From positions 496,001 through 560,000 of the forward strand of contig NZ_JAEPRQ010000002.1 of the NCBI RefSeq assembly GCF_016629665.1: DNA of 64,000 nucleotides, given 5' to 3'. Under the pieces are notes generated by a model. It saw only the letters and a list, made by a program, of their open reading frames with translations, did not search any database and was not told the origin of the DNA. Of the stretch, positions 35,842-64,000 are shown one piece after another; position 1 is the first letter of the stretch; each line of letters opens with the position of its first letter. The translations under genes were made by a program, and so were the position numbers. The DNA is from Paracoccus caeni. GTDB taxonomy: Bacteria > Pseudomonadota > Alphaproteobacteria > Rhodobacterales > Rhodobacteraceae.

Positions 35842-35917
35842 AGGGGTATAGCTCAGTTGGTAGAGCATCGGTCTCCAAAACCGAGGGTCGTGGGTTCGAG
35901 TCCCCCTGCCCCTGCCA
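35842..35917 (+). tRNA. tRNA-Trp (anticodon CCA), likely prophage attachment site
   Basis: A 76-nt cloverleaf with encoded CCA end. The 7-bp acceptor stem pairs AGGGGTA with TGCCCCT (one G-T pair); the anticodon loop CTCCAAA gives CCA for Trp; the T-loop is TTCGAGT and the discriminator base is G. The T stem has one mismatch at its second pair. The phage integrase gene ends 71 bp beyond and points towards it, a standard sign that the tRNA 3' end was the integration target. The tRNA itself is complete. Confidence 0.95.
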
Positions 35918-35987: not shown

Positions 35988-37031
35988 TTATGTTCTCGAT
36001 TCGTGTTGAACACGCTTCATCATCGCGCTTTCTGCCAGTCCGCCATCGCGCTTCAGATAGTGCGCATCGAGGATCATCTCGACATCCTTGAGGGAGTGGC
36101 CGGTGATCGTCGCAATCTCGGCTGTGCTGCATCCCGCAAGGGCTAATCGAGTCACCGATGTGCCCCGTGTGTCGTGGAATGTCGGCCCCTTGATTCCCGG
36201 GCCGATGATCCCCGCGGCAACGCAGGCCTTGCGCCACGTGGTCCTGAAGCCGTCTCCGGTCCAGGGCTTACCCTCTTCGTTGGTCATGATCGTCACGGCC
36301 CGCTTGGGCGTGCTGTCCAGAACATCCTTCAGCGGTGCGCCGATCGGGATAGTTACCCGCCGCCCACCTTTGTTCTGGCGTAGCCGGATATGAGTGCCGT
36401 CATAGGCCTTCCATGTGAGCCTAAGCAGGTCGCCCTGACGCTGCCCAGTCCATACCCCGAGCATGTATCCAAGCCAGACGCGTTTGGGTGCGACCTCTTT
36501 CAGGGCCGTTTCTGCGTCAGTATCCCAGATGATTTCGGCGCGCCCGGATTTGTAGAGCTTGCCCGGTTTCTCGCAGGGATTGCAGGTGATGCGGCCCCGG
36601 TCCTTCGCCCAAGCAAGAATCGCCGCCATTGTCGCGAAGATATAATCCGCCTGCCTCCGAGATGTTTTCGCCATACCGTCGCGCCAGTCTAGCATATCGC
36701 CTCGAGTGGCAGGATCCGGCAGCGCCACCAATGGCAGTGTGCCGTACTTGCCTTCGATCGCGCGAATATTGCGGATGTAATCCTTCTTGGTCCGGTCGGC
36801 CAAGTCGATGAACTTCGGGCTGTCCTGATAGGCATTGATGATTGCCTGCAACGTGCCCTCTCGCGGCGGCACTCGTTGCCTGGTCGCTTTGTTATAGGCG
36901 TCCATAAATGCAGCGTCGCCGGGTTTGCCCGGCAGCCGGGGCCCGCCCTTCCATGCATAGAAGTAGGTTACCCGCGACCCGTCGGCCAGCCTCTTGCTGA
37001 CGCGATTAATGCCCTTTAGCCGCACGTGCAT
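35988..37031 (-). CDS. Tyrosine-family phage integrase
   Basis: A 347-residue site-specific recombinase. The catalytic residues are Arg198 (WTGQRQGDLL), His286 and Arg289 (FHDTRGTS), His312 (ITGHSL) and Tyr325 (DAHYLKR), all in the expected order and spacing. A SAM-like core-binding domain lies at about 60-145. The start at 37031 is preferred because MHVRLKGINRV is a typical phage integrase start; an alternative start at 37091 would add 20 residues and overlap the small gene upstream further. It is the last gene of the leftward operon, directed at tRNA-Trp, and catalyses integration and excision. Confidence 0.93.
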   Translation of the reverse strand: MHVRLKGINRVSKRLADGSRVTYFYAWKGGPRLPGKPGDAAFMDAYNKATRQRVPPREGTLQAIINAYQDSPKFIDLADRTKKDYIRNIRAIEGKYGTLPLVALPDPATRGDMLDWRDGMAKTSRRQADYIFATMAAILAWAKDRGRITCNPCEKPGKLYKSGRAEIIWDTDAETALKEVAPKRVWLGYMLGVWTGQRQGDLLRLTWKAYDGTHIRLRQNKGGRRVTIPIGAPLKDVLDSTPKRAVTIMTNEEGKPWTGDGFRTTWRKACVAAGIIGPGIKGPTFHDTRGTSVTRLALAGCSTAEIATITGHSLKDVEMILDAHYLKRDGGLAESAMMKRVQHESRT

Positions 37032-37215
37032 CCTGTTCTGCCTTCCACTTTTGGAACGGCGTAAGGTTATCCGATTCCCCGGAACTGTCATGGTGGATTA
37101 TGATTGTGCCATTGGGCTCGATCAGCGTCCGTGTAATCGGCAGACCGCAGGCCTGCGCTCCCTTGATCGCGCGAGACACATCCGCCTGCGTGAAGCTCGA
37201 TTTCCTGTTGGCCAT
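37006..37215 (-). CDS. Small phage protein, possible excisionase-position gene
   Basis: A 69-residue basic/polar protein (MANRKSSFTQADVSRAIKGA at the N-terminus) whose first part, FTQADVSRAIKGAQACGLPI, recurs in phage proteins encoded just before integrases. Its stop overlaps the integrase start by 26 bp, so the two are translationally coupled. The position fits a recombination directionality factor, but the sequence is not a recognised excisionase family member, and the role is inferred from position only. Confidence 0.7.
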   Translation of the reverse strand: MANRKSSFTQADVSRAIKGAQACGLPITRTLIEPNGTIIIHHDSSGESDNLTPFQKWKAEQDARAAKGH

Positions 37216-37478
37216 CAGAAAAGCTCCCTTTGATCCTCGGCAATTGCCGCCGTCTGTGCGACCCCTGCCCTCTCCATCCACTGGCCGAATGCGCCGGCGA
37301 GCGCGGCTTTTGCCGCCTCGGCAGACTTCGCCTCGCCGCGCTGTTCGGTGACGTAACACCACCACGTCGCCCGGCCGTCCCCGAGGGGATAGACCGCGCC
37401 GATCTTCGCAGCACGGCTGAGGGCATGGATTCGCCCGGTCGGGGGCTCAGGCTGGTCGAAGATCAGGTGCGCAATCAT
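37215..37478 (-). CDS. Hypothetical phage protein
   Basis: An 87-residue protein not recognised at family level. It has a strand-rich first half (GAVYPLGDGRATWWCYV) and an alanine-rich helix (KSAEAAKAALAGAFGQWMERAG). It shares one base with the next gene downstream and overlaps the methyltransferase gene upstream by 4 bp, so it is clearly part of the coupled leftward operon. Such small proteins are frequent next to phage methyltransferases; no function can be assigned. Confidence 0.7.
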   Translation of the reverse strand: MIAHLIFDQPEPPTGRIHALSRAAKIGAVYPLGDGRATWWCYVTEQRGEAKSAEAAKAALAGAFGQWMERAGVAQTAAIAEDQRELF

Positions 37479-38080
37479 AACGCGATCTCGAATTTATCGG
37501 TCTGGTTGCCCCAGATATCGCGGCCTTCCCACGGCTCGCGCGCGAACAGCTCGCATCCCCAGACTTCAGGCAGCAACTTGTCGATCATCTGCCGCATCTC
37601 GGGTGGTTTGCGGCTATGCTCGCGGCGGATACCTTCGATCGCATCAGGGATTGCCTCGGGCGCAACGATCAGGTTGCGCTGGCCCTTGTCCCTAATTTTG
37701 GGCTGGCCGATTTTGCCGACGATGAACGGCTCGGTTGCGGAACGCAGGCAATAGCCGGTGCCCATGTTTACGTTCCAGTGCCGGGTCCGTTTGGTCCAGC
37801 TGCCACCTGTCACGTATTTGAAGTCCCACGCCCTCATGACCTCCAGCGCCGCTGGCAGATGCGGCCACGTCGACCACATGAACAGCAGGCAATCTGGTCC
37901 GGCCAGATGCGCCACCGGCAACGCTGCGATCGCCTCGGTCGGCATGGTGGCATATTGTGCCTCGGGGGATTTTGCATAGCCCGCGTCGGAACGCATCTCA
38001 TAGGCCCACGGTGGGTCCGCAAGGATTACGCCATATTTCATCTGGGTTAGGTTGGTGAAGGGCCAGTCATCGTGGATCAT
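37475..38080 (-). CDS. MT-A70 family adenine-N6 methyltransferase
   Basis: A 201-residue methyltransferase with the catalytic DPPW motif in VILADPPWAYEM (residues 22-25) and the later blocks CLLFMWSTWPHL and NMGTGYCLRSATEPFIVGK, typical of the MT-A70 (beta-class-like) family that methylates adenine N6. In phages these enzymes may protect DNA from host restriction or affect packaging and gene timing. It overlaps its upstream HNH gene and downstream gene by 4 bp each, consistent with coordinated expression in the early operon. No cognate restriction endonuclease beyond the HNH protein is present. Confidence 0.9.
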   Translation of the reverse strand: MIHDDWPFTNLTQMKYGVILADPPWAYEMRSDAGYAKSPEAQYATMPTEAIAALPVAHLAGPDCLLFMWSTWPHLPAALEVMRAWDFKYVTGGSWTKRTRHWNVNMGTGYCLRSATEPFIVGKIGQPKIRDKGQRNLIVAPEAIPDAIEGIRREHSRKPPEMRQMIDKLLPEVWGCELFAREPWEGRDIWGNQTDKFEIAL

Positions 38081-46470: not shown

Positions 46471-46962
46471 CTATTTCTTCTTGGCACTCTTCGCAGCATT
46501 CACCGCTGTCACTGCGAGTGCGGTCAGCTTGTTGTTTGCGGCCTTCTCTTCGTCGAGGATGGACGTCAGCAGCGTATGGGCCTCGTCGTGTCCCAGCTCT
46601 TTCGCCCATTCGCGCAGCGTCCCATAGCGGGCGATCTCGTAATGCTCGACCGCCTGGGCCGCGCCGATCAGCGCAACGTCGAGCGCGTGACCCGACGCCT
46701 CTTCGATTAGGCCATCGGCTTCCTTGATAAGACCGTCCATGGCATCGCACTTTTCGCCCTTCGCCTCCTGGCCGAGCGACTTGAATACCGCCTCAAGGGT
46801 CTTGATGTGGCCCTTGGTTTCTTTGAGATGATCGTCGATGGCATTCTTAAGTTCCGCGTTGTTCACGGATTTGGAAACTTTCGGCAACGCTTTGGAAAGG
46901 GCGTTCTCGGCCCAGTAGACATCTTGCAGGGTGTGATCGAATGCATCTTGCAGGGTTTTCAT
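46471..46962 (-). CDS. DUF892 (YciE/YciF-type) stress protein, prophage copy
   Basis: A 163-residue ferritin-like helical protein. It has the family opening KTLQDAFDHTLQDVYWAENALSK, then DHLKETKGHIKTLEAVFKSL, VALIGAAQAVEHYEIARYGTL and ILDEEKAANNKLTALA, with the Glu/His positions (DHLKET, EHYEIARYG, DEE) of a possible di-iron or manganese site. The gene has a GGAGGAGAGC site and an EcfG-type promoter in front of it. A host paralogue is at 32183-32686. The prophage may thus supply a stress-protective protein in lysogens. Confidence 0.88.
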   Translation of the reverse strand: MKTLQDAFDHTLQDVYWAENALSKALPKVSKSVNNAELKNAIDDHLKETKGHIKTLEAVFKSLGQEAKGEKCDAMDGLIKEADGLIEEASGHALDVALIGAAQAVEHYEIARYGTLREWAKELGHDEAHTLLTSILDEEKAANNKLTALAVTAVNAAKSAKKK

Positions 46963-48630: not shown

Positions 48631-50820
48631 ATGGGCGTGATGATGGACCGCTTCGAGCCGTTGCCGCCCTATGCGGATCCTCGGGTCGCCCTGAAACAGG
48701 CTTTGCCTGCGTGGCGCCCGGCGCAGCGCATCAGCGTCACCGAGGCCGCTGAAAAATACATGCGTGTCAACGTGTCAGGGCAATGGCAGCCGTTCCGACG
48801 CGATGTTACACCCTACATGGTCGAGCCGACCGATATGATCGCCTCGCGGTCCTATCGTGGATTGTCGTTTTGCGGCCCATCGCAATCCGGCAAGACGCAG
48901 ATGCTGCAATCGGCGATCGCCTACATGATTACCGCTGATCCGGGTCGGGTCGCGCTGTTCCAGATGACGCGCGAGGCCGCGGCGGAGTTCGAACGCAACA
49001 AGATCGCACCTATGGTGCGCAACAGCCCAGAGTTGCGCAACAGACAGGCGCATGGTCGGGGCGCCGATAATATCTATCACAAGCTGTTCACCGGCGGGAC
49101 GCAGCTCACCCTCGACTGGCCGACCATCACCAAGATGAGCTCGGCCACCATCCGCATGGTTCTGGGAACCGACTACGACCACTTCCCGGAAAGCATAGAT
49201 GGCGAGGGCGACGGCTATTCGCTGATGCGGGCACGGGCGCGAACCTACCTGTCGCGCGGCATGGTGGTTGTTGAAAGCAGCCCCGGCGCTCCGCTGAAGG
49301 ACGAATCGTGGCGGCCGGTTTCGCCGCATGACTGCCCGCCGGTCGAATATGGCGTCTTGTCGCTCTATCCGCTCGGCACGCGTGGTCGCTGGTACTGGCC
49401 GTGCCCGAACTGCGAAGCCGAGTTCGAGCCGACCTTCAAGCGTTTGAAGTATCCGAAGGATGCTGACCCGATGGAGGCCGGGGAAGCGGCAAAGATGATC
49501 TGTCCGCATTGTGGGTTCGGGTTCGGGCACGATCTGAAGCGTGAGCTGAACTCGGCTGGCCGCTGGCTGCATGAAAGCCGCGAGATGGATGACCGGGGTT
49601 TGCCCAAGCTGGTGCCGATCGACAGCGGCATCGTGCGCAAGACCGATATGCTGAGCTACTGGCTGGACGGCGCGGCGGCGGCGTTCGCCTCGTGGCGCGA
49701 GCTGGTCACGACCTATGAACAGGCGGTCGAGACGTTTGAGACCACCGGCGACGAAGAGAAGCTGAAAACGGCGATGAACACGGGACAGGCGCAGCCCTAT
49801 TTCCCGCGTTCTGCGGATTCGGGTCTGGAGGTGACCGTGCAGGGCTTGAGGGACAAGGCGCGCGGCCTCGATCTGCCAAAGGGGATTGCGCCCAGCTGGG
49901 CGCGGTACCTGACCATCTCGGTCGACGTGCAGGGCACCCGCTTCGATGTCGGCGTGACCGCATGGGGCGAGAACGGTCAGCACATGCCGATCGACAGGTT
50001 CGACATCTTCACCCTGCCGGGCGGGGATCCGACGCGGATGCTGAAACCATTCGAGACCGCCGAGGATTGGGCCGCGCTCGTGCCGATGGCCGAACGGTCC
50101 TGGCCGATTGCCGGGACAGAGGCGCGGATGAAGGCGGTGGCGATCGGCGTTGACCTTCACGGCGGCGGCGCCACGACAGACAACGCCTATCGGTTCTACC
50201 GCGGTCGCAAGAAGGCCGGACAGCGTGATCTGTGGCACCTGACTCGAGGCGAAGGGGGGCTGAAACATCGCGACCGGGTCTGGAAGAAAGCACCGGAAAG
50301 CGCGAGCCAGCGCAGCAGGCGGCGGCGGGTCGCCAAGGATATCGAGATCCTGTTCATGGCAACGGATCGGCTGAAGGATGCTGTGATGGCGTCGCTCCGC
50401 GCCGAGGCAGGCACAATCAATTCCTGCCTGATCCCGGAATGGATGGGCGACGATCACCTGACCGAGATGACGGCTGAGCGCCGCGGGACCAAAGGCTGGG
50501 AAAAGCGACCGGGTATGGTACGCAACGAAAGCCTCGATCATCTGGTGCAGGCGCGCGCCATGCATATCATCCGGGGCGGCGAGAAGATCGATTGGATGCA
50601 GCCGGCAGCTTGGGCCAGTTGGGATGCGCGAAACAGTTTCCTGATCCTCGCATCGAACGAGGAGGCTTCCGAGACCGAGGCACAGGACGTTGATCCAGTC
50701 TCAGATTCGGAACCCACCGTGAACGAACCTCGGAACCCACCGGTTCAGGATCAGAGCGGCCCGCCACGCCGCCAACGGCAGGCGGGCTGGCTAGGAAACA
50801 GGAGAGGAAAATGGCTGTGA
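48631..50820 (+). CDS. Terminase large subunit (GpA family)
   Basis: A 729-residue packaging ATPase and nuclease of the lambda GpA type (Terminase_GpA). Walker A is CGPSQSGKTQ (about residues 81-89), followed by FQMTREAAAEFERNKIAPM and the acidic FPESIDGEGDGYSL segment. A zinc-like CPNCEAEFEP and CPHCGFGFG pair lies near 260 and 290. The nuclease half holds LTISVDVQGTRFDVGVTAWG and VAIGVDLHGGGATT. It cuts and translocates phage DNA into proheads. Its C-terminal end overlaps the gpW-like gene by 10 bp. Confidence 0.93.
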   Translation: MGVMMDRFEPLPPYADPRVALKQALPAWRPAQRISVTEAAEKYMRVNVSGQWQPFRRDVTPYMVEPTDMIASRSYRGLSFCGPSQSGKTQMLQSAIAYMITADPGRVALFQMTREAAAEFERNKIAPMVRNSPELRNRQAHGRGADNIYHKLFTGGTQLTLDWPTITKMSSATIRMVLGTDYDHFPESIDGEGDGYSLMRARARTYLSRGMVVVESSPGAPLKDESWRPVSPHDCPPVEYGVLSLYPLGTRGRWYWPCPNCEAEFEPTFKRLKYPKDADPMEAGEAAKMICPHCGFGFGHDLKRELNSAGRWLHESREMDDRGLPKLVPIDSGIVRKTDMLSYWLDGAAAAFASWRELVTTYEQAVETFETTGDEEKLKTAMNTGQAQPYFPRSADSGLEVTVQGLRDKARGLDLPKGIAPSWARYLTISVDVQGTRFDVGVTAWGENGQHMPIDRFDIFTLPGGDPTRMLKPFETAEDWAALVPMAERSWPIAGTEARMKAVAIGVDLHGGGATTDNAYRFYRGRKKAGQRDLWHLTRGEGGLKHRDRVWKKAPESASQRSRRRRVAKDIEILFMATDRLKDAVMASLRAEAGTINSCLIPEWMGDDHLTEMTAERRGTKGWEKRPGMVRNESLDHLVQARAMHIIRGGEKIDWMQPAAWASWDARNSFLILASNEEASETEAQDVDPVSDSEPTVNEPRNPPVQDQSGPPRRQRQAGWLGNRRGKWL

Positions 50821-51022: not shown

Positions 51023-52576
51023 ATGAACATGATCGACAGGGCCATTTCGGCGATTGCGCCGCAATGGGGGTTAAGGCGTGCCCGGGCCAAACTGGCGATC
51101 ACCGCGCATTACGACGCTGCGAAGATTGGCCGTCGGACCTCTAGCCTTCGCGCCGCTCGCTCGGATGCCGACGGCGCCGCGCGAGGTCGCGACCGGATGG
51201 CCGCCTATGGCCGGGACATGGTCCGCAACACCCCGTTTGCCGAGCGGGCACAGAATGTGATTGCGGGATCGGTTGTCGGCGATGGCATCATTCCGAAGGT
51301 GACCTGCGCCTACCCCGATTTGAAGGAAGAGATGAGCAAACGGCTGCGCCAGCGAGGGCTGCGCAGGATCGAACAGCATTTTGATACCTGCCGGATCGAC
51401 CGGGTTGGCCGCCTGAACCTCTATGGCCTCCAGCAGTTGGTCATGAAAACCGTGGTCAACGCTGGCGAAGCTCTGATCCGCGTCTATACGGATGAAGTAC
51501 CGGGCGGTCTGCCGCTTCAGCTCGAGGTTCTTGAACCCGATTATCTCGACACGGGCCGTTACGGCTGGACGCCGGACGGTTCGGAGATCCGGGAAGGCAT
51601 CGAATACGATTCTGAGGGTCGCCGCTCGGCCTATTGGCTCTTTCCGGACCATCCCGGTGCCGATTGGTCGCCCCACAGCACGACCGGCGTGTCGGTCCGG
51701 GTTCCGGCGGATGAAATCTGGCACATTTACCGGCTGGACCGCCCGGGACAGAATCGCGGTGTGACATGGTTCGCGCCGGTGATGATGCGTCTTCAGGACC
51801 TGGGCGATTACAATGACGCCCAGCTGATGCGCCAAAAGATCGCGGCCTGTTTTGCAGCGTTTCGTTTCGGGGGCGACGGATCGCGTGAAAGCGCATTCGA
51901 TGAGCTTGAACCCGGACTGATTTACGATCTGGGCGACTCAGAGGATGTCAGGTTCGCCGCCCCACCTGGCGTGGACGGCTATGATGAGTTCACGCGCGGC
52001 GAGCTGCGATCCGTCGCGGCGGACCTTGGAATTTCCTATGAGGCTCTGACCGGTGATCTAAGCCAGGTCAATTTCAGTTCGGCCCGGATGGGACGGCTGG
52101 AGATGGATCAGAATGTCAGCGGCTGGCAGCATCTGATGATCATCCCCCAGATGATGCTGCCCCTTGCCGCCCGGTTCATCGACGCATGGGAAGCGATCGA
52201 CGCCGAAGAGTTCATCACGATAGGTCTTCCGGGTGATATCTGGGGGCACCTTGGCCTTTCTTGGGTTCCGCCGCGCAAGATCATCGTTGATCCGGCACGC
52301 GAGTTCTCAGCCCTGCGCGAGGCAGTCAGGTCGGGTTTCGCGTCACGTCAGCAAGTCATCCGACAACTCGGCATCGATCCTGAGCGCCTGCTTGAGGAAA
52401 TTGCTCAGGACCGCGATGAGGCCGACCGTTTGAAACTGCCCTTCGACAGCGATCCGCGTGCCGATGTTTCCCGACAGACCTCGGCGGGCATCGGCGTGGA
52501 AGATGTCATTGAGGAAATGCAGGCGCGGGCGCGCACTGCATCATCCGGGGGCAATAAGCTGAGGAGCATCCGATGA
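51023..52576 (+). CDS. Phage portal protein (lambda family)
   Basis: A 517-residue portal protein. It has family marks near ALIRVYTDEVPGGLPLQLEVL, HIYRLDRPGQNRGVTWFAPVM, RLQDLGDYNDAQLMRQKIAACFAAF, and the RSVAADLGISYEALTGDLSQVNFSSARM block that defines lambda-family portals. A dodecameric ring is expected at the head vertex for DNA entry and tail docking. The protein's C-terminal end overlaps the protease-capsid fusion by 4 bp, a coupling usual for these genes. Confidence 0.93.
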   Translation: MNMIDRAISAIAPQWGLRRARAKLAITAHYDAAKIGRRTSSLRAARSDADGAARGRDRMAAYGRDMVRNTPFAERAQNVIAGSVVGDGIIPKVTCAYPDLKEEMSKRLRQRGLRRIEQHFDTCRIDRVGRLNLYGLQQLVMKTVVNAGEALIRVYTDEVPGGLPLQLEVLEPDYLDTGRYGWTPDGSEIREGIEYDSEGRRSAYWLFPDHPGADWSPHSTTGVSVRVPADEIWHIYRLDRPGQNRGVTWFAPVMMRLQDLGDYNDAQLMRQKIAACFAAFRFGGDGSRESAFDELEPGLIYDLGDSEDVRFAAPPGVDGYDEFTRGELRSVAADLGISYEALTGDLSQVNFSSARMGRLEMDQNVSGWQHLMIIPQMMLPLAARFIDAWEAIDAEEFITIGLPGDIWGHLGLSWVPPRKIIVDPAREFSALREAVRSGFASRQQVIRQLGIDPERLLEEIAQDRDEADRLKLPFDSDPRADVSRQTSAGIGVEDVIEEMQARARTASSGGNKLRSIR

Positions 52577-54708
52577 ACGAACTTCTTCTTTACGGGTCCG
52601 TTGGATCCTCATTCTGGGACGAGGAATATTTCACGGCGCAGAGCGTGCGAGAAAACCTTGCCGACCTGGCGGGACCGCTGACCGTCAGGATCAATTCGGG
52701 CGGTGGCATCGCAACCGAGGGTCAAGCGATCTATTCTGCGTTGCGCGGCTACGATGGCCCGGTCACCGTGATCGTCGAAGGCATCGCCGCATCTGCCGCC
52801 AGCCTCATCGCAATGGCAGGCGACAGTATCAGCATGACGGCAGGCGCGCTGATGATGATCCATGATCCCGCGCAGATGTTCACTGACGGTCGGGGGACCC
52901 CCGAAGATCACCGCAAAGTCGCCGATATGCTCGACCTGATCGCGAACAACTATGCGGGCATCTATGCCAAGCGCGCCGGCATCCCGCTCGAAGAGGCGCG
53001 CAAGGTCATGAAGGACGAAACCTATTTCGATGCCGCCGGGGCGGTCGAGGCAGGTTTTGCGACGGATGTCGATGACGATGCGGACGGCCAGGAACCTGCG
53101 GCATTCGACTATCGCATCTACAAAAATGCCCCGGCCAAGCTCCGGGCAGTCGCAGGGACACTTGCGCGCCCACGCGCGCAATCTTCTGTGCTGGCCATGA
53201 TGGCCGGGAAAATCTCCAGCAGCGGCAAGAAAGGAAAAACCATGCCGAAATCCAAGGTCACGGCCCGTACGGCCGCTGAGGAAGACGAGAACATCACCGC
53301 CAACGAGGAGGCAGAGACCACGATGGCGGAAGACGACGATCAAGACACCGAAGCGGATCAGGACGACGACGCGACCGCCGAAGGTGACGATGACGAACCT
53401 GCTGCCGCAGAGGAAGATGAGCCCGAGGCGGAAGAGGACGATGAACCTACCGCGCGATCGGCTCGGATCATCGCTGTCGTCAACATGTGCGCGCATCACG
53501 GCGCGCCGGAACGGGCGGCAGATTTCGTCAATCGCGGCCTGTCCACGAAACAGGCTTACGCCGAGCTGACCGGTAAAGGGGGCAAGAAGGTGAAAATCAA
53601 TGGCCGTGGGCCGAGCGCCCGTATCGTCCGCGATGAACGCGAGACGCGCCGCCAAGGGCTCGAAGGCGCTATCGTTGCGCGCCTTTCGCGCGCGACCGAC
53701 GTGCGCGGCCCGGCGCGTGAATACATGCCGATGACGTTGGCCGAGATGGCGATGGCAGGTATGGGCCGCCGTGACCGGGTTTCGCGCGGTGCCGGTGAGC
53801 AGCGGGCGATTGAAATGGCGTTTTCGTCGCACACCACCAGCGACTTTCCGGCTGTCTTCGAAAATGCGCTCAATAAGCGCCTCGCAACTGCCTATGCCGC
53901 TGCAAACCCTGTCTATCGCGCGATCGCCGAACGGATCGACTTCACCGATTTTCGTCCGCACCCGATCGCTCAGGTGGGTGACTGGCCGACGCTGCTGCCG
54001 GTCGAGGAATCGGGCGAGATCAAATATGGAACGGTCAGCGACAAGAAGGAGAGCGTTGCACTGATCCCCTATGCTCGCGCCTTCCGCATCAGCCGTACCA
54101 TGATGATCAACGACGATCTTTCCGCGATTGACCGGATCATCAATACCCGTGGGCGGGCCGTAGCGGCATTCGAGGATGCGACGTTCTTTGCCATGATGCT
54201 GTCGGGGGCGAATGCCGATGGCCCGACGCTCATCGAGACCACGCGGCAGGTCTTCCACACGACGGATGGCACCAAAGCCGCCACGGCTACGGCGGTGACG
54301 CCCGCAGGTGTTTCCGCAGGCTATGCGGCCATGCGCAAGCGCAAAGGCGTGTCGGGCGAATCCTTCCTGGCCGTTGAGCCCAAGATCCTGCTCACCGGCC
54401 CCGACAAGGAATTCGAGGCCATGCAACTGCTTGCGCCTATTCAGGCCGCGCAGGCGTCGAATGTGAACCCGTATGTGGGCCGCCTCTCTCCCGCGACCAC
54501 GCCCTATATCGCCGGGAATGCGTGGTACCTGTTCGCCGATCCCGCTGAGGTTCCTGTCTTCATGTACGGTTACCTGCAGGGCGAGGAAGGGCCGCGTCTG
54601 CGGACGGATGAACCTTTCGGACAGCAGGGCGTCGCCTATTCCGTTGAGCTCGATTTCGGTTGTGGCGCAACGGACTTCCGCGGCGGCTACAAAAACGCCG
54701 GCGCCTGA
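52573..54708 (+). CDS. Prohead protease-scaffold-major capsid fusion protein
   Basis: A 711-residue protein. Residues 1-170 are a ClpP-like head protease (RINSGGGIATEGQAIYSAL, EGIAASAASLIAMAGD with the nucleophilic Ser in GIAASAAS, and MMIHDP with the His). Residues about 230-300 are a very acidic repeat-like region, scaffold-like (EEDEPEAEEDDEPTA). Residues about 400-711 are the major capsid domain (AVFENALNKRLATAYAAANP, FRPHPIAQVGDWPTLLPVEE, VSGESFLAVEPKILL). Fused protease-capsid proteins are a known family. An internal in-frame ATG at 53242 has its own AAAGGA site. It may yield a separate scaffold/capsid product. Confidence 0.88.
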   Translation: MNELLLYGSVGSSFWDEEYFTAQSVRENLADLAGPLTVRINSGGGIATEGQAIYSALRGYDGPVTVIVEGIAASAASLIAMAGDSISMTAGALMMIHDPAQMFTDGRGTPEDHRKVADMLDLIANNYAGIYAKRAGIPLEEARKVMKDETYFDAAGAVEAGFATDVDDDADGQEPAAFDYRIYKNAPAKLRAVAGTLARPRAQSSVLAMMAGKISSSGKKGKTMPKSKVTARTAAEEDENITANEEAETTMAEDDDQDTEADQDDDATAEGDDDEPAAAEEDEPEAEEDDEPTARSARIIAVVNMCAHHGAPERAADFVNRGLSTKQAYAELTGKGGKKVKINGRGPSARIVRDERETRRQGLEGAIVARLSRATDVRGPAREYMPMTLAEMAMAGMGRRDRVSRGAGEQRAIEMAFSSHTTSDFPAVFENALNKRLATAYAAANPVYRAIAERIDFTDFRPHPIAQVGDWPTLLPVEESGEIKYGTVSDKKESVALIPYARAFRISRTMMINDDLSAIDRIINTRGRAVAAFEDATFFAMMLSGANADGPTLIETTRQVFHTTDGTKAATATAVTPAGVSAGYAAMRKRKGVSGESFLAVEPKILLTGPDKEFEAMQLLAPIQAAQASNVNPYVGRLSPATTPYIAGNAWYLFADPAEVPVFMYGYLQGEEGPRLRTDEPFGQQGVAYSVELDFGCGATDFRGGYKNAGA

Positions 54709-55913: not shown

Positions 55914-56342
55914 ATGGCTGATGGAATGATCGGCTACGGTTCCACCGTACGCATCGGTCGGGGGGCGACGCCCACCTTTACCGAACTTGCCCTGATCGGC
56001 GACCTCGATCTGCCTGACGAACAGATCGATGAGGTCGAGGTCACCCATATGAAATCGCCGGGCCGTCGTCGCCAGTTCATTGCGGGACTGATCGACAGCG
56101 GCGAGCTGACCATCCCGATGAACTACATCCCCAATTCGCCCTCGGATGTCCTTTGCAGGGAGCTGAAGGCCAGCGGCGAGGATGTGATCGTTGAAATCAC
56201 CATCACCGAGGGCGGCACCCCTGAGCAATTCGTCGGCTTCGTCAACGGCTATAACCGTTCGGCGCCGATCGATGACAAGATGACGGCAGAGGTAACCTTC
56301 CGCCTGTCCAGCTTCATCGAACCGGAAGCAGGTGAGCCGTGA
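55914..56342 (+). CDS. Phage tail tube protein
   Basis: A 142-residue protein of the phage tail tube family (TTP; gpV-like without an Ig domain). Typical are ELALIGDLDLPDEQIDEVEVTHMKSPGRRR, EFIAGLIDSGELTIPMNYIP and MTAEVTFRLSSFIEP. It has an AAAGGA ribosome site. It overlaps the tail chaperone gene by 4 bp (GTGA). It should form the inner tail tube hexamer rings. Confidence 0.85.
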   Translation: MADGMIGYGSTVRIGRGATPTFTELALIGDLDLPDEQIDEVEVTHMKSPGRRRQFIAGLIDSGELTIPMNYIPNSPSDVLCRELKASGEDVIVEITITEGGTPEQFVGFVNGYNRSAPIDDKMTAEVTFRLSSFIEPEAGEP

Positions 56343-57027
56343 GCGCGATTACAGGCGAAGTGACCGTCAAGCATGCCGGAAAGACCTACCGGCTTTATCT
56401 CGGCATCCGTGGGATTGGTCATCTGCAGCAGGAATTCGGCGCGGACCTCGCGCCGCTGTTCAAGGATGACACTGACCTGGACGCCGGGGTTCCTCCGGAA
56501 ATGACCCCGCTGCTGCGCGTGGTCGAGTTGGCGCTTTCCCGGCACCATACCGACGCGGACGACTATCTGGCGGATGATCTGCTCGCCGCCGATATGAGCT
56601 TGCCCGGCAAGCTCATCGCCGCTGCCATTCCGTCAGGCGCTGACGTAGATGCCGGAGGGTCCACCGGCGCGAAGACCACGGGAAAGCGGAAGGCGAGGCG
56701 CTAGACCTCGCCAAGCTCCATCGCGCCTGGCTGCTGCTCGATCTCGATCCGGAACGGTTCTGGGACATCACACCCCGGCTGGCCCTGATCGAGATTGAGA
56801 CCGCCCAGGAAAGACTGCGGCGGCAAGAAGATCTTGCGATCACCGCGGCATGGCTGTCGGCGGTCCTGCATCGGCAAAAGAAGGTGCCGAAGCTCGACAA
56901 GCTGCTGGCGCGTGGCAAAGGCAAGCCTGACGTGCAGATGTATCTTGCCGGTCTGAAGGCGCAACTGCCGCGCACCACAATGAGCCAGTGGCGCGCCCGC
57001 GCCGTCGGCGCACCACAATCCCCGTAA
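56339..57027 (+). CDS. Tail assembly chaperone pair with programmed -1 frameshift (G/GT type)
   Basis: The zero frame (GTG at 56339) gives a 121-residue protein (gpG-like; GTA chaperone family) with VTVKHAGKTYRLYLGIRGIG and HTDADDYLADDLL. It ends at 56704. The -1 frame continues open from there to a stop at 57025-57027 and codes for a helical T-like part (AKLHRAWLLLDLDPERFWDI, KKVPKLDKLLARGKGKPDVQM). The heptamer G GGA AAG (56680-56686), the lambda G/GT slippery sequence, is in the correct frame. A 229-residue fusion, made in minor amounts, is expected. Long and short forms regulate tape-measure assembly. Confidence 0.85.
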
Positions 57028-57043: not shown

Positions 57044-58927
57044 ATGGCGAGATCAGCAGTGGTGGGCCGACTTCGCGTTGGCCTGTCGGTCGATCAGAAA
57101 GAGTTCCAGCGCGGCATGGCCGAAGCGCGGACGGGGATCCAGCGCTTCAGCGGCGAGGTCAACCGCCGCCTCGGCGCGCTTGGCGATTTGCCGGGCGTGC
57201 GCTCGCTGCAGGACAGGCTCGGCGGCATCGGAAAGAATCTTGGCGCGGCGATCGCGACGGCAGCCGCGACCGCCACCGTCGCACTAGCCGGGCTGTCGGC
57301 GGCAGCGATCAATGCGGCCGGTGAGATCCAGAACCTGTCCCGCATGGCCAACGCCACGCCCGAAGAGTTCCAGGGCTGGGCCGCGGGTGCGCGCACCGTC
57401 GGCATCGAGCAGGAAAAGCTGTCGGACATCCTGAAAGACATGAACGATCGCGTCGGCGACTTCATCTCGACCGGCGGCGGTCCGATGAAGGATTTCTTCG
57501 AAGTGGTCGCGCCGAAAGTCGGGGTAACGGCGGATCAGTTCCGCAAACTGTCCGGACCGAAAGCCCTGCAACTCTATGTCGACACACTCGAAAAGGCGAA
57601 CCTGAACCAGCAGGATATGACCTTCTACATGGAGGCTATCGCCTCGGACAGCACGTTGCTGCTGCCGCTGCTGCGAGACGGCGGCAAGGCCATGGGGGAA
57701 TATGCCGCCCGGGCCGAAGAGCTTGGCGCGGTGATGAGCAACCGCACCGTCAAATCGCTGGCCGGCATGAAGCTGGCCCTTGGCGAGGTCGGCATGGTCA
57801 TGCGCGGCGTGCGCAACTCGCTCGGTGCTGCCTTCGCGCCCACCGCTACATACACCTCGCCCTTGCGTATGTATGAGGAGGCCACGACGCCGATCTTCAT
57901 CCTGCCCGGCGCGCAGGCGGAGGATGGTGGAACGGCCCGGCCGGGACGATATGATCTCGGGCTGGTCACAGATCACCGGCAGGCTCAGTACGTCGCGGCC
58001 ATCATGGGCCGGCGCACCCGCATGCAGCGGAGTTGGTCGGGCGTCCTGCCGGGTCAGGCATTTGATCTTGTCGCCCTATCGGTGATGCAGCTTGACCTTC
58101 CTGCCCCCTATCTGAGCCGCAGCGGGATTTATGAGGTCGAGATGATTCATCCCGGATTTGACCCGATCGGCCTGGAAGGGTCCGCTATGCGGTGCCCGGT
58201 TTCGCTACGCGAGACCTCGCCCGCAATCTATGCATGGAACCCGGCGACCGACGAACAGGATGTTACGATCGAAGCTTTCGACCCTGACGTGAAGGGGGTC
58301 AAACCACCGGAGAATGTGACCCTGCTCAGCGACGCATCGACCGTCATGACGTCCGGAGACACCACGATCGCGCGCATCCGGTTTTCTTTCGATCCGTCCC
58401 CCTCAAGCTCAACGCTTGGATATGGGTGGGAATATCGCCAGGGGAGCGATCCGTGGCAGGCAGGCGGCTCGGTCGAAAGCGACGTTGTCGATGGTGCCGG
58501 AAAGGTGTTCGGCTATCTCGCTCCGGTCGAACTGGGCAAACCATATCAGATACGGGTTTGGACGATCGCACCGTCTGGCACCTCAGAACAGGTCGTTGCG
58601 GGGCCGATCACGGCATCTGCCGGAGCATTTCTCGCACCCGCCCCGACACCTATCAGCGCGATCGGTGGTACCGGGCAGATCGCGGTCACTTTCAGGTCGC
58701 CGAACAATTCGCATTACCGTGCGATGGAAATCTACGTCGCCGATGTCGACAACGCCGGCGCCGCGGTTCTGCTCCTGGGTCCGATCTACGGATCGGCCAA
58801 TGCCGCGGTGACCGAGGTCCATACCGGCCTCGGGCCCGGGGCTACCCGGTATTACTTCGCGCGCTCGATCGACAGAAACGGGAACCCGTCGACCTTCAGC
58901 GCCAGCATCAGCGCCACCACCACCTAA
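57044..58927 (+). CDS. Tape measure N-terminus fused in frame to tail-tip protein C-terminus (deletion junction)
   Basis: A 627-residue chimera. Residues 1 to about 265 are a tape measure protein beginning (RLRVGLSVDQKEFQRGMAEA, then helical and SDILKDMNDRVGDFISTGGG), here far too short. At about residues 266-272, without a stop, the sequence becomes the end of a central tail-fibre/tip (J-like) protein: LRMYEEATTPIFILPGAQAE, GRYDLGLVTDHRQAQYVAAI, and two fibronectin-III-like modules near 420-625. Most of the tape measure and the distal tail genes (M, L, K, I and most of J equivalents) appear deleted at about 57836-57853. The product is unlikely to build a working tail. Confidence 0.85.
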   Translation: MARSAVVGRLRVGLSVDQKEFQRGMAEARTGIQRFSGEVNRRLGALGDLPGVRSLQDRLGGIGKNLGAAIATAAATATVALAGLSAAAINAAGEIQNLSRMANATPEEFQGWAAGARTVGIEQEKLSDILKDMNDRVGDFISTGGGPMKDFFEVVAPKVGVTADQFRKLSGPKALQLYVDTLEKANLNQQDMTFYMEAIASDSTLLLPLLRDGGKAMGEYAARAEELGAVMSNRTVKSLAGMKLALGEVGMVMRGVRNSLGAAFAPTATYTSPLRMYEEATTPIFILPGAQAEDGGTARPGRYDLGLVTDHRQAQYVAAIMGRRTRMQRSWSGVLPGQAFDLVALSVMQLDLPAPYLSRSGIYEVEMIHPGFDPIGLEGSAMRCPVSLRETSPAIYAWNPATDEQDVTIEAFDPDVKGVKPPENVTLLSDASTVMTSGDTTIARIRFSFDPSPSSSTLGYGWEYRQGSDPWQAGGSVESDVVDGAGKVFGYLAPVELGKPYQIRVWTIAPSGTSEQVVAGPITASAGAFLAPAPTPISAIGGTGQIAVTFRSPNNSHYRAMEIYVADVDNAGAAVLLLGPIYGSANAAVTEVHTGLGPGATRYYFARSIDRNGNPSTFSASISATTT

Positions 58928-58940
58928 ATCGGAGAGCAAG

Positions 58941-60575
58941 ATGGCTATGCCCGTCTATAGTCTGCCTGTTGCAAACGGGCAGGCCACGAAGCAGTCGCAT
59001 GACAGCGAGATGAACCGTGTCATCGCGGAGATCCTTGCCCGCTCTGCCAAAGCCTTCTTCAGCCGCAATTCCGCCGCCGAATTCGGCCAAGCCAATCTGC
59101 CGACGCAGCTGGGCCTGATCACCACGATCGAGGGCGACTGGATCGCCTCGCGGGCCCCTGGCCTCTTCGCAGACGATCCGCTCTTCGCGCCCGACGATCC
59201 GGATTCTCCGACCAATGGCCCATGGTGGGGCGTTCGCGCACGCGTGCCGACCAGTCAGCTCTTCGAGCGGGTGCTGCCCGAGGCCGAACCCGAGAACGGC
59301 GGGATGGTGCCGCTGATCGCCGCCGGTGAACGGGTGCTGATGTGGGTCGATGAGGATGGCAATGTCGCTGGTCACGGCCTGGCGGCGGGAACAGTCGATG
59401 TCGAGGGCACCGAGCCCTCCTATGTCCCGATCCTCGCAGCTGGTGAACAGGTGTTCATGTGGCTTCACGATGGGGAGGTGATGTTTCCGGGCAAGGCCGC
59501 GCCGGATCCTGCACAGGACGCGGCGTTCACCTATTCAGACAACAACAACCTGCACCGCTGGCGCACCGCCATCAGCAAGGTCGAGCTGGGCGAGCCCGGC
59601 GCCAAGGCCAAGATCGCGTTGATCGGCGACAGCTGGATCGAACAGGCGCCGATCCCGCGCGCGCTCTACAACCTGCTGGCCAAGGATTACGAGATGGCCG
59701 GCGGCGGCTTCCGGTCCGGCGTCCAGCACTTTGAATTCGTGCCGGGCGTGACGTGGACCGCCACCGGCTGGGATCAGACCGACGGCTCCAATCAGTCTGT
59801 CTTTCCCTATGGGGCGGGGCCGGACGGCAACTCGACCTGGACCACGGGCACCACGGCGGCGATCCAGTATCTCGACTTTGAGGCCACCGATATTCAGATC
59901 GTCTATCGCCACCACGGTGGCAGCTTCCGCTACTCGATCGACGGCGGCGCTTATGTCGAGGTGGTCTGCAACAACTCGCAGAGCCGAGCGGTCATCAACA
60001 TTTCCGGTCTGGCCGACGGGCCGCACAGTCTGCGCCTCGATGTGACCAATAACACCGGCGGTGGCACCGTCGTCATCGACTACATCTACACGACCCGCGC
60101 GCCGGTCGCGGGCGTCCAGGTGCTCAAGCTCGGCAATGGCGGCACGGCGGGCTTCTGGGTCAAGAACTATACCCAATACCTGACCACGCCGCTGGCCGAG
60201 ATGCAGCCTGATGTCGTCGTGGTCGTCCTCGGCACGAATGATTACCGCAGCGCCAATTCCCCGCCCTCGGTCTATGTCGAGGCTCTGCAGCAGATCGTGG
60301 ACGCCTGCCACCTGGCGGTGCCGGATATCGGCTTTGTGTTCGTCGTGCCCTCGGAATCGCAGGGGCCTGCGGTCACGCCGCTGGCGGATTACCGGGATGC
60401 GCTTTGGAACTGGGCGATCCCGCGCGGTCATCAGGTGATCTCGCTGCTGGATCGCTGGCCCGGTTTCCCGACCGCCAATGCGGCCGGTCTGTGGCGCGAC
60501 CAGTCCCATGTCAGCGATCCGCTGGGCGCGACCATGATTGCCAAAACCCTTGTCGAACTGAGCTTGAAAGGCTGA
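58941..60575 (+). CDS. Tailspike/fibre with SGNH esterase domain
   Basis: A 544-residue protein. N-terminal ~180 residues form a tail-attachment and linker region with two similar segments (GGMVPLIAAGERVLMWVDED near 120-140 and YVPILAAGEQVFMWLHDGEV near 161-180). The rest is an SGNH/GDSL hydrolase: LIGDSW with Ser231, VLGTND near 431-434 and the Asp-His pair in RDQSHVSD (520, 523). Phage SGNH domains remove acetyl groups from surface polysaccharides. It is probably the receptor-processing spike. It has a GGAGAG site and begins 13 bp after the chimera gene. Confidence 0.85.
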   Translation: MAMPVYSLPVANGQATKQSHDSEMNRVIAEILARSAKAFFSRNSAAEFGQANLPTQLGLITTIEGDWIASRAPGLFADDPLFAPDDPDSPTNGPWWGVRARVPTSQLFERVLPEAEPENGGMVPLIAAGERVLMWVDEDGNVAGHGLAAGTVDVEGTEPSYVPILAAGEQVFMWLHDGEVMFPGKAAPDPAQDAAFTYSDNNNLHRWRTAISKVELGEPGAKAKIALIGDSWIEQAPIPRALYNLLAKDYEMAGGGFRSGVQHFEFVPGVTWTATGWDQTDGSNQSVFPYGAGPDGNSTWTTGTTAAIQYLDFEATDIQIVYRHHGGSFRYSIDGGAYVEVVCNNSQSRAVINISGLADGPHSLRLDVTNNTGGGTVVIDYIYTTRAPVAGVQVLKLGNGGTAGFWVKNYTQYLTTPLAEMQPDVVVVVLGTNDYRSANSPPSVYVEALQQIVDACHLAVPDIGFVFVVPSESQGPAVTPLADYRDALWNWAIPRGHQVISLLDRWPGFPTANAAGLWRDQSHVSDPLGATMIAKTLVELSLKG

Positions 60576-60578
60576 ACC

Positions 60579-61322
60579 ATGAAAACGCGCGTCCTCGACA
60601 TCGGAAACATCGCTCTGCCCGGCACCGGCTATCCGCCGCTGGCGGCCTTCAAGATCCCGTTTCGCCCGCAGCTGGCCGGGGCTTTCTTCCTCGGCAGCGG
60701 CAGAGAGGTCGGGTTGACCGACTGGTCGGGCAAGACAAGCGGCGCGGTCGCTGTCGGCTCACCGTTGTGGGAAGAAGGTTATGCCGAGCTGAGCGGCGCC
60801 AACTACCTGCAGACCGGCGTGCCCGAGACGACGTTCATGACGCTGGTGGCGTGTGTGCGCAGCCTGACCAACTCGGAATCGGCTTTCATCGGTGGATGGG
60901 GCGGGCCGGGCAATGCCGGCGTCGCATTGGTGCGTTTTGCCACCAATGATCGGATCGCAGGGCTGGCCGGTCTCAGCAACGATACCCACCAGACCGTCAA
61001 TGCGAACGGCCCGATCATGAACCAATGGGCGATCTGTTCGCTGAAGGTCGGCGGCAGCAATATCTGGATCGAGAACCACAGCAGCGGCCAGACCTCCGGC
61101 GTCATCGACTACCCTGCTGGCCTGTCGCGAAAGATCAGCGCGAACGCGCATCCGCTTCGCCTCGGGCGCGGCTACACGCCGTCCTATGTAAACCCGGTGC
61201 AGATCAACAGCGCCCTGATGTACAACGCCAGTCTGACAATCACCGACACTCGCGAGGCCGCGCACCTGGTGCATGGTTATGCACAGCGCAGCCTCGGAAT
61301 CGATATCCCGTTTGTGACCTGA
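60579..61322 (+). CDS. Accessory fibre/lectin-like phage protein
   Basis: A 247-residue protein, starting 3 bp after the spike gene. Strand-rich with WEEGYAELSGANYLQTGVPE, MTLVACVRSLTNSES, MNQWAICSLKVGGSNIWIEN and HPLRLGRGYTPSYVNPVQ, a LamG/concanavalin-like pattern often found in phage adhesins. It may bind surface sugars or serve as a chaperone for the spike. Fold assignment is by pattern only. Confidence 0.6.
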   Translation: MKTRVLDIGNIALPGTGYPPLAAFKIPFRPQLAGAFFLGSGREVGLTDWSGKTSGAVAVGSPLWEEGYAELSGANYLQTGVPETTFMTLVACVRSLTNSESAFIGGWGGPGNAGVALVRFATNDRIAGLAGLSNDTHQTVNANGPIMNQWAICSLKVGGSNIWIENHSSGQTSGVIDYPAGLSRKISANAHPLRLGRGYTPSYVNPVQINSALMYNASLTITDTREAAHLVHGYAQRSLGIDIPFVT

Positions 61323-61329
61323 GTTGGGA

Positions 61330-61605
61330 ATGCTGGAAGCGCTGCGGGATTTCTGGGCCATCATCATGGCCTTCATCGGGCTTGGCGTCTGGCTCGTCAG
61401 AATGGAGGCCAAGATGGGAACCAACTCCAAAGACATCGCGCGTCTCGAAAAGCAGATCGAGCGCGAACGCCTCGATACCCGTGAAAAGCTGGAGGATCTG
61501 ACCGACATGATGCGTGAGCAAAACCGCGACATCAAAATCCTGCTCGGGCGCGGGCACATTCAGCACTGGGATGACCGCACGCAGCCGCCTGGTCGGGGAA
61601 GGTAG
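61330..61605 (+). CDS. Membrane-anchored coiled-coil phage protein
   Basis: A 91-residue protein with one N-terminal membrane helix (LRDFWAIIMAFIGLGVWLV) and a charged coiled coil (KDIARLEKQIERERLDTREK, DLTDMMREQNRDIKIL). This layout is shared by small phage proteins near lysis cassettes, for example XhlA-like haemolysin or accessory lysis proteins. The ATG at 61330 is preferred to the TTG at 61324. The role in lysis is inferred. Confidence 0.62.
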   Translation: MLEALRDFWAIIMAFIGLGVWLVRMEAKMGTNSKDIARLEKQIERERLDTREKLEDLTDMMREQNRDIKILLGRGHIQHWDDRTQPPGRGR

Positions 61606-61777
61606 CTGACGCCGTAACGCTGAAATGCGGGGGAAGCCTTAACGACCGGGTGAACAATCCAACGGACAGAGCTAGACTGTGCGCGAATGGCGCGCCGTAA
61701 GTTTACAGGAGAAGTTCGGAAACCCAAAAAAAGTGTATATTTTTTCAAGGCTGTAATTTAGTCGCTGTTTTTGCATC

Positions 61778-61807
61778 TTGCACTTCATTATCTAGTGATT
61801 TTCTATA
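61778..61807 (+). promoter_or_regulatory. Candidate promoter for the AT-rich cargo gene
   Basis: TTGCAC (61778-61783) and TTCTAT/TCTATA (61801-61807) have a 17-18 nt spacer. The surrounding DNA (61700-61810) is AT-rich compared with the prophage. The gene begins 42 bp on. Confidence 0.45.
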
Positions 61808-61849
61808 GGCGAAGATGCCGCGTCCTGAGGGGGGCAAGTTTCTCGCATC

Positions 61850-62425
61850 GTGTATTTAACGGGTCTGACTAAATTGAACCTTCGACATAATTTTACCGAG
61901 ATCTTGCTTCCGGCAATCTTGGCTGCGGCAGTGATGTCGCCATCGTATGTGCAGCCTCTTTGGTCCCAGGCGCCAGAGAGAGCTAATCTAGCTGATAGCG
62001 ATGAATCTATACGGAGATTAGAGGATGCCGTCCAACTGAGGAAAGGCGGTTCATCGGGTGATGTGAATAGCTATGAAGGTCTATGGCTTGATCTTCATCG
62101 CAAGATGGAAATATTAGAAATCAAGCCATTGAATGGGAGCCAGCTTCAGGTAGATTACGTGAGAATAGAATATCGCAACTTTGCTAGTGCGCAACCAACC
62201 AGAGGGTCGATTGTGGGCGAGCTTATTGGCGGGCGTCTACTTTTAGAAAGAGATACTGGAACTTTTGTGATGTTCCTCAGCCCTGAGAAGGGTGTGTTGG
62301 GAAGCTATGGAGCAGGGACATATTTGCCTGTTGCTTATGAAGGCGATTACACAAAACTTTTGGATATACGTGCGTCGGGGAAATTTAGAGAAATGTTACA
62401 AGGACTTGGAATAGAGCCAGAGTGA
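61850..62425 (+). CDS. AT-rich cargo protein of unknown function with N-terminal membrane segment
   Basis: A 191-residue protein, start GTG at 61850. Near the N-terminus, TEILLPAILAAAVMSPSYVQ forms a signal or anchor. The remainder is soluble and mixed (VNSYEGLWLDLHRKMEILEI, YVRIEYRNFASAQPTRG, LLLERDTGTFVMFLSPEKG). Its codon use is clearly AT-richer than every neighbour (for example ttagaaagagatactgga), a sign of recent transfer. It lies between fibre and lysis genes and has its own candidate promoter, so it is a moron, possibly for lysogenic conversion. No family recognised. Confidence 0.6.
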   Translation: MYLTGLTKLNLRHNFTEILLPAILAAAVMSPSYVQPLWSQAPERANLADSDESIRRLEDAVQLRKGGSSGDVNSYEGLWLDLHRKMEILEIKPLNGSQLQVDYVRIEYRNFASAQPTRGSIVGELIGGRLLLERDTGTFVMFLSPEKGVLGSYGAGTYLPVAYEGDYTKLLDIRASGKFREMLQGLGIEPE

Positions 62426-62632
62426 CCAAAAATAGATACGTTATTAGTGTGGCAAGACTGACGAACCCCGTTGTCGACATGATGGCAAATAATTGACGTC
62501 ACGCACCGTGACGGCTAATGCGCCGGTTGGCGATGGCGTATCAGCGTATTTTAATCGCCGCGCCTTCCGTGTCCGAAGACGCAGCTACCGGCCCTCCGTC
62601 TCCAGAGTGAAGTCGATGATACCGCAGGCGGC

Positions 62633-62827
62633 TTATTTTCGCGTCAGAATCTTGGTGAGGCGCTCCAACTCAGCGATCGTCTCGTCATAGCTGGTGCCGG
62701 ACTTGGGATATTCCGCCCTTAGCATGCGGTAGAACGCCAGTTGCTTTGGCAGGTCCTCGAGCGGGTAGGTTCCAGACCAATATCGCCCGGTCAGGGTGAA
62801 TGTCTTGTCGTCGTGAGTCGCCTTCAT
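62633..62827 (-). CDS. Small hypothetical protein, leftward
   Basis: A 64-residue protein (MKATHDDKTFTLTGRYWSGT, then YPLEDLPKQLAFYRMLRAEY) with a helical C-terminus SYDETIAELERLTKILTRK. The ATG at 62827 has an AAGG site. It is transcribed against the late genes. The preceding 62426-62632 stretch has no gene but a small inverted repeat (62499-62515). No family is recognised. Confidence 0.6.
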   Translation of the reverse strand: MKATHDDKTFTLTGRYWSGTYPLEDLPKQLAFYRMLRAEYPKSGTSYDETIAELERLTKILTRK

Positions 62828-62907
62828 GGCGGCCTTCTGCACGGTCCGCTCCGAACCAGCAACCCACACCCGCCCGCCTCGCGCGGGCTTTTTTCATGGA
62901 GATACCG

Positions 62908-63543
62908 ATGACTGCCGTGATGAACGCGGTGCGCGCGCAGCAAGCGCGCTGCGCCGCCTTGGGCTTCTGGCCCGGCCCGATTGATGGAATTGACGGCCCG
63001 CGCACCCGCGCCGCCTATGCCGCCGCTCTGGCGGCGCAGAAGGCCAAAGGCTTGCCGTTCCGCCATCCGACAGGGATCACACGGATCCATTGGCACTGGA
63101 CCGGTGGCGGGCATGAGCCGAACGCCACCGATCTGAAGGCCTATCACGCGCTGATCGACGGCGCGGGCAAAGTGCGCTGGCCGGTTGATCCGACCACGTC
63201 GCGCTCGCACACGTTGAATGCCAACAGCGGCGCCATTGGACTGTCAATCTGCGCGATGGCCGGGGCGAAAGAGCGCCCCTTCACGTGGGGCAAGGCACCG
63301 ATCACCGCGCAGCAGGTGTCCACACTGGTCCGCGAGACGGCCCGTCTGTGCCGTGTCTATGACATTCCGCTGTCGCGCTGGTCCGTGCTGTCGCACGCCG
63401 AGATCCAGCCGAGCCTTGGCGTCACCCAGAAGAACAAATGGGACATCACCGTCCTGCCCGGCATGTCCGGCCCGGCCGATCCCATCACTGTCGGCGACCG
63501 TCTGCGCGAGATGGTCCGCTGCGAACTGTTCGCGCTTTCCTGA
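62908..63543 (+). CDS. Phage endolysin (N-acetylmuramoyl-L-alanine amidase)
   Basis: A 211-residue lysin. N-terminal peptidoglycan-binding domain (residues about 8-45: RCAALGFWPGPIDGIDGPRT) precedes an Amidase_2-like zinc domain: His61/His63 in RIHWHWTGG, His163 in LSHAEIQPS and Asp179 in NKWDI, plus DLKAYHALIDGAGK and GAIGLSICAMAG. It cuts the amide between muramic acid and L-alanine. The ATG at 62908 has a GGAG site; upstream starts lack support. A holin-like gene follows 13 bp on. Confidence 0.87.
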   Translation: MTAVMNAVRAQQARCAALGFWPGPIDGIDGPRTRAAYAAALAAQKAKGLPFRHPTGITRIHWHWTGGGHEPNATDLKAYHALIDGAGKVRWPVDPTTSRSHTLNANSGAIGLSICAMAGAKERPFTWGKAPITAQQVSTLVRETARLCRVYDIPLSRWSVLSHAEIQPSLGVTQKNKWDITVLPGMSGPADPITVGDRLREMVRCELFALS

Positions 63544-63556
63544 AAGGAGCCTGACC

Positions 63557-63775
63557 ATGAAAACAACACTTGCAAACCAACTGTCGGCACTGCCGACCAA
63601 CAAGCTGCTGACCGGCTCGGGCGTTGGCTCGATTGTCAGCACGGCATGGGCCGAGGTCATGGCCTCTTATGCGCCGAGTCTGGCGGGGCCGGGGATGTCG
63701 GCGCTGGTCGGCTTCGTCGCGGCAATCGCGATCGGGTATTTTGTGCCTGATCGGGTGAACACGCCTGCGGAATAG
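63557..63775 (+). CDS. Holin-like small membrane protein
   Basis: A 72-residue protein with two hydrophobic segments: a short one near 22-38 (VGSIVSTAWAEVMASYAP) and a strong one near 46-64 (MSALVGFVAAIAIGYFVPD). An AAAGGAG site precedes the ATG. Position directly after the endolysin and its size fit a holin, which permeabilises the inner membrane to release the endolysin; homology is not secure. It is the last clear phage gene in the window. Confidence 0.7.
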   Translation: MKTTLANQLSALPTNKLLTGSGVGSIVSTAWAEVMASYAPSLAGPGMSALVGFVAAIAIGYFVPDRVNTPAE

Positions 63776-63847
63776 GTAGTTCTCGCGCGAAGCTTCCGTC
63801 TTCACTGCGAGGCCTTACATGAGGAATTCATCTTTGACGCTCAATCC

Positions 63848-64000
63848 CTAGCATGGCTCAATGTCACTTTCAGGCACTGACCGGCTAGGGTCCGTTCTCG
63901 GGGATGTCCAACACTCATGTGCGCGGTTAAGCTGCTCCTGGATGATTGGACATGCTTCAGAGATGCCACCCAACGCGACTATATAGCTTGGGGCGGCGTC
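63848..64000 (-). CDS. Possible 3' end of a leftward gene running off the window
   Basis: The minus strand has an open frame from the window edge to a TAG at 63850-63848 (about 50 codons; contains SYIVALGGISEACPIIQEQL). No family is recognised, and it is too short to judge. No repeat of the tRNA-Trp 3' end is present here, so it cannot be said whether it is phage or host DNA. Confidence 0.25.
   Translation of the reverse strand, partial: DAAPSYIVALGGISEACPIIQEQLNRAHECWTSPRTDPSRSVPESDIEPC

Follow-up and report, generated by a model that had tools for sequence, protein, structure and literature searches.

An in-frame tape measure-J fusion in a Pben1-like prophage of Paracoccus caeni, probably left by an internal deletion of the tail module

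The window analysed here (the whole stretch of DNA, 64,000 nucleotides in length) carries what is, judged from its sequence, a Pben1-like siphovirus prophage, and in it the start of a tape measure protein (TMP) gene is joined in frame to the end of a J-type tail-tip gene. The composition of this fusion is confirmed by the profile matches and alignments presented below. We consider it probable that a single internal deletion removed about 4.4 kb from the tail module, joined the remainders of TMP and J in frame and left the prophage tail-defective; the locus looks like ordinary prophage decay and not like a new kind of gene. The features of the prophage and of the fusion, in window coordinates, are as follows.

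35842-35917: tRNA-Trp, beside the integrase gene.
35988..37091, minus strand: prophage integrase (phrog_1, E 4.6e-36), beside tRNA-Trp.
37475-38080: MT-A70 family gene (E 1.9e-25), near the integrase and also present in a second prophage.
46471-46962, minus strand: DUF892 gene (E 1.1e-54), inside the prophage and before the terminase; probably cargo.
48631..50820, plus strand: terminase large subunit (phrog_15, E 2.6e-172).
51023..52576, plus strand: portal protein (phrog_21, E 9.5e-80).
52573..54708, plus strand: head protease and major capsid protein in one gene (phrog_4523, E 3.1e-107; phrog_133, E 1.8e-106).
55914..56342, plus strand: tail tube protein (PF16461, E 1.5e-11).
56339..56704, plus strand: small gene preceding TMP, at the place of a tail chaperone gene, with weak matches only (tail family phrog_2115, E 0.024; PF11836, E 0.039).
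57044..58927, plus strand: fusion ORF, open for 627 codons (627 aa).
57044..57841, plus strand: N-terminal 266 codons of TMP, with an ATG start and AAGGAAG just upstream.
57841..57842, plus strand: junction of codon 266 (Pro, TMP) and codon 267 (Thr, J), placed within a few bases.
57842..58927, plus strand: final ~360 codons of a J-type tail-tip/central-fibre gene, beginning within PF13550 (Phage-tail_3).
58941..60575, plus strand: downstream gene with a GDSL-type esterase domain (PF13472, E 3.5e-9; phrog_14987, of unknown function, E 2.6e-55; tail protein phrog_15881, E 9.9e-16).
61850-62425: 191-aa ORF between the tail and lysis genes, with low third-position GC (0.42) and no Pfam match at 0.01; possibly recent cargo.
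62800..63543, plus strand: endolysin, an amidase (phrog_5867, E 9.5e-42; PF01510, E 3.6e-10).

Further family matches in the prophage are to a small HTH regulator, a head-closure-like protein and, in part, a replication protein, and the rightmost recognised prophage gene is the endolysin. Neither 14-base nor 12-base words, the latter followed across 60000-64000 and beyond to the contig end, revealed an attR or other repeat of the tRNA-Trp end. The gene content is that of a defective prophage: integrase, regulator, terminase, portal, capsid, tail tube and endolysin are present, the end of TMP and the start of J are missing, and, to judge from the related genomes G071 and G085, the genes between TMP and J would be missing as well. 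With the other prophage genes judged mainly by their family matches, the lesion between TMP and J is the sole one noticed.

The PHROGs scan divides the ORF at the junction. Residues 4-269 match the TMP family phrog_2854 (profile positions 3-256 of 855, E 2.6e-78), residues 268-564 the tail fibre family phrog_5616 (positions 375-683 of 873, E 4.8e-23) and residues 385-625 the central tail fibre J family phrog_31 (E 5.7e-15). When the halves were scanned separately, as the original prediction had proposed, the TMP half matched tape measure families, apart from a few weak or unknown families, whereas the J half matched nothing but tail fibre, J and tail families. This split, with its 627 open codons, agrees with the original description of a tape-measure start of about 265 residues that runs without a stop into a J-like end. 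The fibronectin-like modules that were also predicted were not recovered: Pfam reported no FN3 domain for the fusion even at E values as high as 1, while phrog_31, a lambda-J-type profile, does align to the region. The Pfam matches were a partial PF13550 (profile 70-154 of 164, E 0.016) and a weak DUF4062 (E 0.048), both under the cut-off.

Each half is an incomplete version of a longer protein. For comparison we used 2,232 proteins, namely those matching at E up to 1e-20 among the 7,997 candidates with the most words in common in a search of 5.8 billion sequences. The TMP half is 92% identical to residues 1-266 of an intact 756-aa TMP (P0016) and 78% identical to the 768-aa TMP of G071, and the other TMP matches (92 among the best 120 of the 2,232) have a median length of 756.5 aa (range 401-848); the fusion lacks the C-terminal part that reaches the tail tip and covers only the stretch of phrog_2854 given above. 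The J half is 71% identical to residues 349-709 of an intact J (P0002) and 68% identical to the J of G085. Of the 27 other J proteins within the same best 120, 26 align with it from residue 350-382 onward and one (P0049) from residue 205. PF13550 spans residues 294-449 of P0002 (profile 12-161 of 164), and the fusion has neither the N-terminal half of J nor a whole PF13550.

Relatives with separate genes indicate what lay between the two parts. Counterparts of both halves occur in one relative only in G071 (TMP 78%, J 40%) and G085 (J 68%, TMP 38%). The TMP and J (731 aa) of G071 are separated by 1,775 bases with three small ORFs, those of G085 by 1,721 bases, again with three small ORFs. The first of the in-between genes of G071 has no PHROGs or Pfam match, the second belongs to the tail family phrog_2048 and the third matches phrog_2134 and DUF6950; in a second prophage of the P. 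caeni genome, called prophage A below, the counterpart of the first matches phrog_12948 and phrog_1302 (distal tail protein) and that of the second again phrog_2048. The original prediction was of a large deletion crippling the prophage tail, and the separate TMP and J genes of these relatives, with tail genes between them, support the deletion, from which we infer the tail defect. Its suggestion that lambda's M, L, K and I are what is missing holds in that intervening tail genes are gone, but G071 and G085 have three small ORFs and not four, and the lambda genes are only a rough guide to those lost here. By the coordinates of G071 about 4.4 kb is absent, and a single internal deletion would have taken the last ~500 TMP codons, about three tail genes (three in G071) and the first ~366 J codons, the number of genes being an estimate, as the content between TMP and J varies among relatives and amounts to seven annotated CDS in Pben1. 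In another genome of the genus (G091, contig C10, 441426-442600, L044) the J gene is seemingly split by a frame change into ORFs of 605 and 219 aa, which could also reflect faulty sequencing of a draft genome.

Comparison with intact relatives, also among the original proposals, located the join. In DNA alignments it falls at 57841/57842, within PF13550 of J: the four TMP genes used in the comparison are similar to the ORF as far as 57840-57842, and the J gene of G085 from 57842 onward. A codon-wise comparison with the TMPs of prophage A, G071, G017 and G113 and with the J genes of G085, G091 (two) and G071 found no obvious parental homology at the join, though a repeat of a few bases may exist there. 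What the fusion keeps are the two outer ends of the TMP-to-J stretch.

The fusion was found once and, on the searches made, looks unique. Matches at 1e-5 among the best 120 of the 2,232 proteins number 93 for the TMP half and 28 for the J half; the fusion is included in both counts and is the only protein of which this is true. Its protein cluster has one member, from one contig. No second fusion, defined as a match starting before residue 200 and ending after 350, appeared among the matches listed for 125 genomes of the genus (54 with a match, own genome included, up to ten candidates scored in each) or for 394 genomes of the family, a sample of a larger group (51 with a match, own genome included, up to three candidates scored in each). 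Of the matches extending over residue 268, three were inspected individually and rejected, one as J half only (G072, 206-626) and two as TMP half only (G318, 14-298; G073, 12-312); the run-on of protein P0005 (206-627) proved to be weak similarity across its first 60 residues. Of 79 locus-strand sources with a hit, 63 match the TMP half, 24 the J half and eight both, and these eight comprise five copies of the window itself and three sources with separate ORFs (L039, L040 and L074, the last probably on the same contig as L040). In the same set, a 756-aa ORF at each of L021 and L067 aligned over residues 90-452, but these were set aside, neither locus being among the matches to the J half alone at 1e-10. 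By itself the J half finds a match in 9 of 148 related genomes, own genome included. As a query, the fusion finds one locus in genome_contigs and 14 in viral_contigs, all by its TMP half, and there are three viral_contigs loci for an intact J (P0009) and 30 loci for the intact TMP P0016. A limited survey of the literature named no TMP-J fusion, which is no proof of absence from print.

The second prophage, differently deleted, lies on the same contig.

G000 contig C13, 180019-201990 (L003/L004), outside the window: prophage A, a remnant of about 22 kb bounded by an 18-base repeat.

The repeat consists of a tRNA-Gly end at 180019-180036 and a copy at 201973-201990. Prophage A has an integrase (phrog_1, E 2.5e-24). 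Its TMP gene is retained from about codon 31 onward, accompanied by three small ORFs and a separate J-class gene (phrog_5616), and its endolysin shares 97% identity with that of the window. Only about 90 bases lie between the stretches that match window positions 39869 and 57136, so that the head region and the TMP start are missing, and a stop stands directly upstream of the TMP frame. The losses of the two prophages differ and are nearly complementary.

A recombinant between two phages, one donating TMP and the other J, would give the same kind of ORF as an internal deletion of one phage, and we regard it as unlikely, though the best placed of the alternatives. The best TMP type and the best J type do sit in different phages in G071 and G085, with no relative found to be close in both halves, and dS between the window prophage and prophage A ranges from 0.17 to 0.79 depending on the gene, as in mosaic phages. 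However, P0046 (TMP, 67%) and P0009 (J, 68%) have the same sources and the same longest contig of 103,087 bases, which suggests that one phage may carry both types, and the outcome for the tail is identical either way.

That reads of two prophages, or of a collapsed region, were joined in the assembly, with the missing genes present in the cell, we hold to be improbable. Prophage A has a similar TMP on the same contig (91% DNA identity over 707 bases), and the similarity stops at the junction, which counts in favour of such an artefact. Neither the J half nor the missing part of J was found a second time in the 20 contigs of the genome, however; the intact J P0002 finds the fusion only (E up to 10) and the intact TMP P0016 the fusion and the second prophage only. 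With J genes of relatives standing in for the lost J sequence to its left, the join has no obvious shared sequence, and the genome is rated 99.67% complete. Searched against this genome, two of the three in-between genes of G071 drew blanks and the other gave a single match at E 0.25 interrupted by two stops, a weak control in that the diverged counterparts in prophage A were also missed.

The retained TMP part carries the mark of strong purifying selection. Over residues 52-266 the window and prophage A differ at 60 bases, 53 of them at third codon positions, and dN/dS is 0.035 (0.017 for residues 52-160 and 0.059 for residues 161-266, nearest the junction); the corresponding ratio is 0.123 in the endolysin and 0.082 in the MT-A70-like gene. 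These values fit a recent loss but give the deletion no date; they are those of selection on working TMPs across the whole divergence of the two prophages, and selection on the fusion is not needed to account for them. The least probable alternative, that the fusion is kept as useful, for instance as an inhibitor of tail assembly in invading related phages, has in its favour an open frame with a start and the precedent of Tab, a prophage protein which the available text of PMC10884400 describes as blocking tail assembly via TMP, but the fusion occurs only once, its low dN/dS is accounted for by selection on intact TMPs, and it is without the TMP C-terminus, to which the same text links the activity of Tab. 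The captured chimera kept for a use that the original prediction offered as its alternative accordingly finds no support in a fusion found once, whose in-frame join had a one-in-three chance. It is a long shot that the fusion is expressed and its TMP start recruits the tail tube or chaperone of related phages and, for want of the TMP end and of the first half of J, poisons tail assembly of superinfecting Pben1-like phages, or else that the window prophage, with its heads and tail tube, and prophage A, with its TMP body and tail tip, make up in part for each other's losses; were the fusion to act in trans, a single random deletion could create a phage-interference gene.

Under an internal deletion, the reading that we prefer, recent illegitimate recombination within one phage would have joined the remainders in frame, and the open frame would be a matter of chance, one in three. 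The available text of PMC10721106 places the C-terminal helix of lambda gpH in the tail tip and the hub domains on gpJ. When solved structures were searched with a profile built from 20 J proteins, none matched at E 0.01. Having lost the end of TMP and the first half of J, the presumed site of the hub if lambda is a guide, the fusion product would fail to initiate a tail. Induced cells would be expected to produce heads and to lyse while releasing no infectious tailed particles, the tail being presumably non-functional.

The closest described phage is Paracoccus siphovirus vB_PbeS_Pben1 (MK291441), whose TMP start is 76% identical to that of the fusion over residues 1-266 and which is presented in the available text of PMC6536676 as an active temperate siphovirus observed by electron microscopy. 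The window prophage shares with Pben1 the order terminase, portal, fused protease-capsid, tail protein and TMP, and the annotation of Pben1 likewise has head protease and major capsid as a single gene. In contrast to the window prophage, Pben1 has a full TMP, then the seven annotated CDS and then a whole 725-aa J-class tail fibre gene, which gave no match to the J half of the fusion in the comparison that matched the TMP start. The prophage tail modules of G071 and G085 hold a counterpart for each half, but as separate genes with the three small ORFs between. The locus is a clear example of tail loss by a prophage and is useful mainly for annotation, where an automatic pipeline could label the 627-aa ORF either tape measure or tail fibre protein. 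Cryptic prophages generally have essential structural genes deleted while other modules are retained; the pattern of loss here is the same, but the join happens to keep the frame open.
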